From assembly GCA_032027145.1 (NCBI GenBank), contig JAVSMP010000001.1, positions 1,888,903-1,952,902 on the forward strand: 64,000 nucleotides of DNA. Direction: 5' to 3'. The stretch comes from Ignavibacterium sp. GTDB lineage: Bacteria > Bacteroidota > Ignavibacteria > Ignavibacteriales > Ignavibacteriaceae. The notes below the pieces were generated by a model that had not been told where the DNA came from, did not search any database, and saw only the letters and a list, made by a program, of their open reading frames with translations. The position numbers were made by a program, and so were the translations under genes. Numbering within the stretch: the stretch's first letter is position 1; every line of letters starts with the position of its first letter. This document shows, in pieces, positions 42,184 to 45,325 of the stretch.

Positions 42184-43323
42184 TTATTTTAAAAGGATCA
42201 TTTTTCTTGTTTGTGTAAACGCACCCGCCTTTAACTGATAATAATATACTCCACTTGGTAATGTAGAATTTGTTGTGTAAAGTATAGAGTGATTACCGGC
42301 TTCGTAATATCCATCAATTATCGTTTCAATTTCTTTTCCTAATACATTAAAAAGTTTTATTGACAGCCAACCTGCTGCTGCTGTCTGCCAGTTTATAGTT
42401 GTATTCGGATTAAATGGATTAGGATAGTTTTGACTTAAAGAATAATTGTATAAAACCGGATCATCAGACATGCTTGTTGCTGAATTCCATCCAGCAAGCC
42501 TTGACCAGAGCCACCAGGCTGCATAAGCTTTTAAATTTCCGTTTAGTGGTTTGCTATGAGCTGCTGAACAATTATACCAGTGAACATTTAGAGTATGAGA
42601 GTTCTGCCAGTCTGTTGCCCAGTTTTTATCAAGACTTCCGTTTCCATCACTGTCATAATCGCAATTATCATTTGCATTTTTATTTAAATAATAATTTCCA
42701 TCGGGGTCATAAGATTCAATGTCTGCAAAATCATAAAGAATTTTATTGTTGTTAATACAATAATTTCTTATTTGTTCGTTCCTTTGATTAAGATTTCCGT
42801 TAACACCGCTTCCATCAAGATGCCCGGTCATATAAACAAACTTAACATTTGGATAATCTGTTTCTAAGCCATTCATAAGATTAAGATAAGTATTGATATC
42901 AGCCTGAGTTGCACTACTTACTTGTCCGCACCAGCTCCATATAACAACATTCACATCACTGTTGGATGGATTATTTAAATAATCTCTGGTTGCCGAAGCC
43001 CAGGCTGTTCTGTTTGGGTTACCAAGATCAGAAGCACCGCTGAAAGCATAATCATCAATATCTAATGCTCCGTTTGAACCGCCTTCATTAAAAGCATATT
43101 GATTTCCTTTCCAATTCTTTAGTCCTTCCATTCCTGTGATTAACTGACTTCCGTGAGATGTATGTCCATAAGCAATATGAAGTTTTGCTTTTGCAGAGTC
43201 AATCCAGTTAGTTGGAATGATTGAAAGCTTTGCAGAGTTGTGATTTGCAATTATTGCATTTTGTGAAAATGTATAACTGACAAAAATAATTGATAGTACT
43301 ATTGTGTATAAATATTTTTTCAT
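42184..43323 (-). CDS. Secreted protein of unknown function with T9SS sorting domain
   Basis: A 379-residue exported protein. Signal peptide residues 1-20 (ends TFSQ). The central domain (about 25-290) has HIAYGHTSHGSQLITGMEGL, VVIWSWCGQVSSAT, YMTGHLDGSGVNGN and a closing AAHSKPLNGNLKAYAAWWLW; the Gly-His-Thr-Ser-His-Gly and paired His/Asp motifs suggest an SGNH-like or metal site but I cannot assign a family. The last 75 residues are a T9SS type A sorting domain (NYPNPFNPNTTINW, GVYYYQLKAG). It converges with the MqnA-like gene, 1 bp apart. Confidence 0.75.
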   Translation of the reverse strand: MKKYLYTIVLSIIFVSYTFSQNAIIANHNSAKLSIIPTNWIDSAKAKLHIAYGHTSHGSQLITGMEGLKNWKGNQYAFNEGGSNGALDIDDYAFSGASDLGNPNRTAWASATRDYLNNPSNSDVNVVIWSWCGQVSSATQADINTYLNLMNGLETDYPNVKFVYMTGHLDGSGVNGNLNQRNEQIRNYCINNNKILYDFADIESYDPDGNYYLNKNANDNCDYDSDGNGSLDKNWATDWQNSHTLNVHWYNCSAAHSKPLNGNLKAYAAWWLWSRLAGWNSATSMSDDPVLYNYSLSQNYPNPFNPNTTINWQTAAAGWLSIKLFNVLGKEIETIIDGYYEAGNHSILYTTNSTLPSGVYYYQLKAGAFTQTRKMILLK

Positions 43324-44900: not shown

Positions 44901-45242
44901 CTATGGTTTACCTGGAAACGACTCAACAAATTTTATTTTAATATCCGGAAACGAATCTACAATCTTTATTTTAACATCCGGAAATGATTCTACAATTTGC
45001 CACTCACCGCAATCATCAGGAAATGAATTTACAATTTTTACTTTAAGGTCAGGAAATGAATCAACTATCTGAACTTTTATATCGGGAAAACTCTCCACAA
45101 ATTTAATTTTCCCGTGCAGCGGATAGCCATTATAAGTACAAGATTCAAAATCAATTTTATTTTTATCCTGAGCTATTAATGTTGAATTAAATAAAACAAT
45201 TGATAGAGTGATAAATAAAATATTTTTTAAAACAATTTTCAT
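44901..45242 (-). CDS. Small secreted protein of six 11-residue SFPD repeats
   Basis: A 113-residue protein with a signal peptide (residues 1-24, ends LIA before QD) and an ordered repeat region from residue 45 to the end. The unit is about 11 residues, I-K-I-x-I-V-D/E-S-F-P-D; six copies occur: KIKFVESFPD, IKVQIVDSFPD, LKVKIVNSFPD, a 4-residue insert DCGE, WQIVESFPD, VKIKIVDSFPD, IKIKFVESFP. Codons differ between copies, so the pattern is held at protein level. Cys35 and Cys78 could form a disulfide. I know no function. A stack of beta strands is likely from the alternation. It stands alone between hutU and the SerA-like gene. Confidence 0.75.
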   Translation of the reverse strand: MKIVLKNILFITLSIVLFNSTLIAQDKNKIDFESCTYNGYPLHGKIKFVESFPDIKVQIVDSFPDLKVKIVNSFPDDCGEWQIVESFPDVKIKIVDSFPDIKIKFVESFPGKP

Positions 45243-45250
45243 TTCATTTT

Positions 45251-45323
45251 GTCATCCCGCAAAAGGGGGAGTCCATAACTTTACAACAGATTGCTTCTCC
45301 CGAAGATTCGGGACCGCAATGAC
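45251..45323. repeat. GTCA...TGAC palindromic element after hutU
   Basis: A 73-bp element bounded by GTCATCCCGC and GCAATGAC, with an inner perfect palindrome TCCCGAA-GA-TTCGGGA (45298-45313). It lies 2 bp from the hutU stop and 8 bp from the SFPD gene start region. It resembles the GTCA-ended palindromes at 7524 and 10275-10661. Confidence 0.6.
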
Positions 45324-45325
45324 AT

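Follow-up and report, generated by a model that had tools for sequence, protein, structure and literature searches.

The window analysed here, a stretch of 64,000 nucleotides from an Ignavibacterium sp. genome, carries on its minus strand a gene (44901..45242, with an ATG start and its stop codon at 44901-44903) that encodes a protein of 113 residues built largely from SFPD repeats. The gene is single-copy, with one match in its own genome (window contig G000:C1, 3,665,746 bases). On this strand, genes for adenosine deaminase, a protein of 111 aa that matches no Pfam family, and urocanase come before the SFPD gene, which is followed by one for a D-2-hydroxyacid dehydrogenase. Urocanase and the SFPD gene are separated by a gap of 83 bases (window 45246-45324) with a short palindrome, CCCGAAGATTCGGG. 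The urocanase-side half of the gap recurs at two other places in the genome as diverged partial copies (83-84% over 37-40 bases), and the gap sequence (45246-45324) may be what is left of an interspersed repeat. The protein encoded at 42184-43323 of the window, also on the minus strand, has a Por secretion-system C-terminal sorting domain (PF18962) as its sole Pfam match over the cut-off.

The protein opens with a putative signal peptide (residues 1-24, 45171..45242), suggested by a hydrophobic stretch and by divergence among relatives, with cleavage near A24-Q25 as judged by eye. Cys35 (45138..45140), which co-occurs with Cys78, lies ahead of the first repeat. Six SFPD repeats follow at residues 44-111 (44910..45113), delimited from the translation, the repeat pattern and the modelled strands, with a V-to-V spacing of 11, 11, 13, 11 and 11 residues. 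Repeats 3 and 4 are linked by two extra residues, D77-C78 (45009..45014, the Cys78 codon being 45009-45011). The initial annotation had correctly counted six copies and placed the two cysteines at 35 and 78. The repeat region covers 68 residues (6 x 11 + 2, from GKIKFVESFPD to IKIKFVESFPG), and the last unit closes with FPG, not FPD. The insert that it had described between copies 3 and 4 is present, at a net length of two residues rather than the four (DCGE) proposed, provided that copy 4 (GEWQIVESFPD) is counted with its 11 residues. No catalytic motif was recognised by eye in the protein.

A protein of this kind has already been characterised structurally, contrary to the view taken when the gene was first described. 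In a phmmer search of PDB sequences, the window protein matched UU089.1 of Ureaplasma (8iwa, E=5.5e-13), and the profile of the family built here retrieved the same protein at 3.4e-17. UU089.1 (Q9PR55; five PDB entries, 8iwa, 8iwb, 8iwc, 8jrm and 8w68) carries the same SFPD repeats, with homology over window residues 45-102, and is also the best fold match for the model of the window protein. We take this to be the family named '7(1) septoil knot'. The window protein further matches phrog_6462 (E=4.4e-31), as do 98 of 98 collected members. The phrog_6462 profile is built from viral proteins and is listed in PHROGs as of unknown function, whereas the window copy sits among chromosomal housekeeping genes. 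Membership of the window protein in the SFPD-repeat family containing UU089.1/Q9PR55 is thus shown at the level of sequence, and the protein is a new example in a known, widespread family rather than a new kind of protein. In Pfam and NCBIfam, the models that matched the window protein all stayed far below their cut-offs. The Xpf endonuclease model, for instance, scored 18.6 bits on it against a cut-off of 300 and was rejected. Of the 98 members, 17 gave weak stray matches to the Xpf model (best E 2.5e-4) and seven to DUF6893 (best E 6e-4), which were taken as chance matches on repetitive sequence.

In the work of Brems et al. (2022, PMC9278004), a 7_1 knot is predicted for Q9PR55 and a 5_1 knot for its homologue P73136 (112 aa). 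The available portions of a 2026 review and of the AlphaKnot 2.0 paper state that the 7_1 knot of Q9PR55 was confirmed by X-ray work, and in the parts of the literature at hand the UU089.1 knot is reported as the most complex yet in any natural protein. Hits to a well-described family whose function is known had been named at the outset as grounds for refutation. This is half the case: a structure has been described, and no function or phenotype for the family was found in the searched literature, which does not prove their absence in print. The likeness of the window protein to P73136, whose 5_1 knot is an AlphaFold model, runs through the published homology of P73136 to Q9PR55. A six-repeat member from Synechocystis salina (L065) may be the P73136 orthologue, given its length and the source organism of P73136.

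The layout of the repeats is conserved across the family. The collected set of 98 members comprises the window protein, seven genome loci, 80 from genome contigs and 10 from IMG/VR, and was not thinned. A simple pattern finds the exact spacing of 11, 11, 13, 11 and 11 in 87 of the 98, and an ungapped six-unit template accepts 97 of them, the window protein included (acceptance being 18 or more of 24 points, by a rule derived from the same set). The sole misfit, L101, terminates early; L007, in which the first unit has two additional residues, still passes. The last unit ends in G in all 97 members of 97. This fixed layout, with 97 of 98 fitting the template, argues that the family is one fixed fold rather than a variable repeat array, as judged from its sequences. 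The solved protein itself departs from the layout rule in its linker and last unit. The middle linker of UU089.1 is two residues longer than that of the window protein in the aligned stretch, and its fifth unit, SFGDFE, leaves only four residues and so no space for a sixth SFPG unit. The residue preceding F-P-D (S, N or H) tends to be uniform across the repeats of one protein, with a pair identity of 0.862 against 0.666 in shuffled data (98-member set, kinship ignored).

Evidence for export and for selection comes from five congeners (L160-L164). Over residues 26-113 dN was 0.04-0.10 and dS 0.70-1.82, whereas residues 1-25 gave a dN of 0.36-0.82 on only 15-25 aligned codons. Such near-free divergence of the first 25 residues ahead of a constrained remainder is what a cleaved signal peptide in front of a conserved mature protein would produce. 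Together with the hydrophobic start, this contrast bears out the original proposal of a secreted protein, and export of the window protein is well supported by these sequence comparisons. Strong purifying selection on the mature part is likewise well supported, with codons saturated and dN far below dS, as had been expected from the differing codons of the copies.

The near-identity of the repeats at the protein level could also be explained by recent neutral repeat expansion, and eight relatives (L097, L044, L071, L050, L059, L084, L066 and L081) do share codons between repeats clearly and well above expectation. Homogenisation or local codon bias may account for these eight. Pooled over 89 relatives, 4343 of 8654 pairs share a codon against 3902.5 expected, a ratio of 1.11. 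The window gene itself behaves differently: same-residue pairs at equal positions of its repeats share a codon in 51 of 104 cases, against 50.4 +/- 6.5 in 2000 simulations that drew codons at the frequencies seen in eight nearby genes. Codon sharing at chance level (50.4 expected, 51 of 104 found) indicates that the window repeats are old and without a trace of recent copying, and it agrees with the earlier observation that codons differ between copies. With chance-level codons, a repeat number that is constant in 97 of 98 members and a dN far below dS in the comparison with L160-L164, neutral expansion is refuted for the window gene and retains a negligible probability. The codon patterns of such an expansion, which the initial annotation had named as a possible refutation, were looked for and were absent from the window gene.

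The mature part is predicted to be compact. An AlphaFold2 model from the 98-row alignment had a mean pLDDT of 91.3, with block means of 96-98 over residues 41-110, and places one strand in each repeat (44-48, 55-59, 66-70, 80-83, 90-94 and 101-105). Residues 2-21, within the putative signal peptide, were modelled as a helix at pLDDT 74-78. A compact six-strand domain with one strand per repeat is well supported by this model, which is consistent with the strands and Pro-Asp turn suggested beforehand, the strands being short. Foldseek returned four significant hits, all of them Q9PR55 entries (best E=2.7e-6), and a BFVD fold search gave no match at E<=0.001. The Foldseek alignment of the model to 8iwa (64 columns) superposed at only 10.2 A (TM 0.26/0.36), so that the model and the 8iwa chain have no common global path in that alignment. 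VIA-align brought 57 residues to within 2.0 A with a Z of 5.8, which is below the level that is telling by itself. Both results would be accounted for if the protein wound differently from 8iwa, in the way reported for P73136. The chain probably winds as a torus knot, either 5_1 or 7_1. One paper (PMC10672856) cautions that AlphaFold takes no account of chain-crossing barriers, yet it lists the 5_1 and 7_1 models among the possibly real ones.

The two cysteines had been proposed as a possible lock, which is made plausible by their near-perfect co-occurrence in sequence. Both are present in 88 of 98 members and neither in nine; the odd one out, L094, has a displaced linker cysteine alone. Twelve further viral-contig members inspected by eye comprised eight with both and four with neither. 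Seven of the nine Cys-free rows fall on one branch and two on another of a weakly resolved tree, so this co-occurrence rests on few independent events. Four of the nine lack a hydrophobic start and five have one, and the pair is therefore no simple tracker of export. It is fairly likely that Cys35 and Cys78 are joined by a disulphide, which would fasten the N-terminal segment to the linker in the middle of the chain.

Such a cysteine pair could in principle serve redox chemistry. At seven of 90 loci (L023, L025, L026, L032, L053, L082 and L090), the ORF directly upstream is co-directional and encodes a GSHPx-family peroxidase whose N-terminus is hydrophobic (confirmed by Pfam in seven of seven), and in some loci the two genes touch or nearly touch. 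This arrangement would suit a protein that partners a secreted peroxidase in redox reactions outside the cytoplasm by way of its cysteines. Against it, clustering did not find the GSHPx gene in the other 83 loci, nine of 98 members lack the cysteine pair, and the seven loci carry Bacteroidota or Chlorobiota titles only. A redox role is accordingly given very low probability.

Gene neighbourhoods point to no common partner. The survey clustered by BLAST 498 ORFs, up to three on each side of the SFPD gene at 90 loci, and found no family-wide gene partner within this range. It gave clusters confined to lineages, a loose cluster at five loci (L054, L068, L082, L084 and L090), one of seven loci near six alphaproteobacterial loci and L062, and the seven GSHPx loci. 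The flanking urocanase and dehydrogenase genes of the window recur in 12 of the 90 scanned loci, an arrangement that looks like inheritance rather than function.

The family is widely distributed. A scan of genome contigs gave at least 589 candidate stretches, at least 538 of them relatives, of which the best 80 were kept. It had been supposed that similar repeats might occur in other Bacteroidota; relatives in fact extend beyond that phylum. By titles and groups, many of them from metagenome bins in which contigs can be misplaced, the kept members include Bacteroidota, Ignavibacteriota, Chlorobiota, Pseudomonadota, Cyanobacteriota, Myxococcota, Spirochaetota, Bdellovibrionota and Acidobacteriota. 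Within the phylum of the window the gene is rare, with 10 matches, including a false one, in a sample of 296 genomes and 10 in 395 by profile. Within its family 19 of 80 genomes match, of which one is false and one decayed (18 true including the decayed copy). In the genus, six genomes were searched, the source genome among them, and each carries the gene. The decayed, shortened copy (G152, L011/L156) lies at the same spot between urocanase and dehydrogenase, which shows that the gene can be lost. A tree of 97 rows, two of them identical, was built on few columns and its bootstrap is unsettled. Phyla are mixed on it, with 21 changes against a minimum possible of 8 and a shuffled mean of 44.7, and on so weak a tree this mixing does not prove transfer. 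Two candidates were dropped as false members: G015/L012, a long unrelated frame, and G459/L174-L175, a DNA minisatellite frame whose LLNSFPFVKGG repeats imitate the family in tblastn. One Leptospiraceae member (L067) has a lipobox-like LAFTGC near its N-terminus, and some members may be lipoproteins.

The SFPD gene is also found on 22 distinct IMG/VR contigs. When the neighbours on 13 contigs were scanned with PHROGs, ten contigs (L094, L101, L102, L096, L136, L140, L141, L143, L149 and L151) had genes for tail, baseplate hub, tape measure, terminase or endolysin; the neighbours on L098, L093 and L097 gave nothing, or a weak or unnamed match, and no clear phage gene. Nine of these contigs have the SFPD gene opposed to the phage genes: in L094, L101 and L151 it is antisense and flanked on both sides by phage genes with baseplate-hub matches (phrog_4930 and phrog_5233), and it is also antisense near phrog_5233 in L143, a tail protein in L102, a terminase in L096, a minor tail protein in L140 and an endolysin in L136 and L141. 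Such positions, and the count of viral contigs, would suit a cargo gene, and the protein may be one of host-phage conflict or lysogenic conversion, exported so as to alter the envelope, for instance against superinfection, and kept in chromosomes. Several observations weigh against this account. Genome assemblies, whose prophage state was read out to three ORFs per side, and not viral contigs contributed 88 of the 98 members, and the window copy sits among housekeeping genes in an order common to 12 of 90 loci. Among 50,697 named phage records, five queries turned up nothing genuine, one of them giving just chance hits at E=7; the tape-measure-like ORF of L094 lies on the same strand as the SFPD gene, three of the 13 scanned contigs (L093, L097 and L098) lack a clear phage gene, and the position of a gene is silent on the action of its protein. 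A part in phage conflict or conversion is judged possible, if rather unlikely.

Among plasmids, only two records of Leptospira weilii and a single one of Burkholderia stagnalis matched, the latter in a region without annotation, and two phage-borne copies searched as DNA against E. coli genomes gave no match. The L. weilii plasmid carries a phage tail module in which the SFPD gene is co-directional within the baseplate run. It stands there between a 120-aa gene and one for the gp47/J baseplate wedge, and there is an overlap of 4 bases. Six IMG/VR contigs (L149, L150 and L152-L155) repeat the gene sizes and the overlap, the PHROG names coming from L149 only. This arrangement suggests that in some phages the protein could be a virion part of the baseplate. 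Yet the L. weilii version retains a signal-peptide-like start, which would be odd for a virion part, and elsewhere the SFPD gene is antisense to tail genes. A structural role in the virion is thus improbable.

The identity of the family, export and the fold of the window protein, taken together and excluding any binding step, are held with high confidence. What the protein would do can be outlined more tentatively. It would be an exported, non-enzymatic module, resistant to unfolding and to proteases, that acts outside the cytoplasm. The knot, and probably the disulphide, would stabilise it, and it would present an envelope partner with a row of near-identical SFPD turns. A resistant extracytoplasmic module that presents SFPD turns to a putative envelope partner is a tentative proposal, well short of an even chance. 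It is favoured over the phage conflict or lysogenic-conversion reading, and the two are compatible.

The available literature has so far placed the most complex knot of a natural protein in one Ureaplasma protein and one predicted cousin. The present data indicate a family that is mostly exported, occurs across bacterial phyla with a conserved layout and is carried on phage-like contigs. This wide spread makes the purpose of protein knots testable in tractable organisms. The family would be broadened further by a link to DUF6150 (PF19647), if that link is true.

DUF6150 proteins resemble the SFPD family in having a signal-peptide-like start, six repeats arranged as 3+3 and a conserved W preceded by a longer link, as seen by eye. 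Their units are of 13 residues (YESQAD), in contrast to the 11-residue units of the SFPD family. An hhalign comparison aligned the two in register, with two extra residues per DUF6150 unit (P=5e-5, probability 67.5), and L007 combines an EYASQAD unit with NSFPD units. The PF19647 model had no hit on the window protein at E<=1 (family cut-off 27 bits) or on any of the 98 members at 0.01, L007 included, and the DUF6150 profile found nothing among PDB sequences at E<=10. An AlphaFold model of a DUF6150 protein was set aside for its mean pLDDT of 46.8. From these sequence comparisons, DUF6150 may be a distant cousin with 13-residue repeats. Among the 80 genomes of the window's family, 18 carry the SFPD gene (one decayed) and 13 DUF6150, with an overlap of zero (hypergeometric 0.026, kinship ignored), which is only a hint of mutual exclusion. 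A more speculative and rather improbable idea is that the two are interchangeable 11- and 13-residue versions of one torus-knot fold, in which repeat length, linker and repeat number set the knot type; they would be exported cargo spread partly by temperate phages, with the same envelope job, and a genome would keep one.

A natural variant in repeat number was also observed. The DUF6150-like protein L117/L120 (G057:C1, reverse) has five uninterrupted YEAD-like units, without a middle linker or an evident signal peptide, and continues with a Ser-rich stretch, a membrane-like helix and more C-terminal sequence, as judged by eye.
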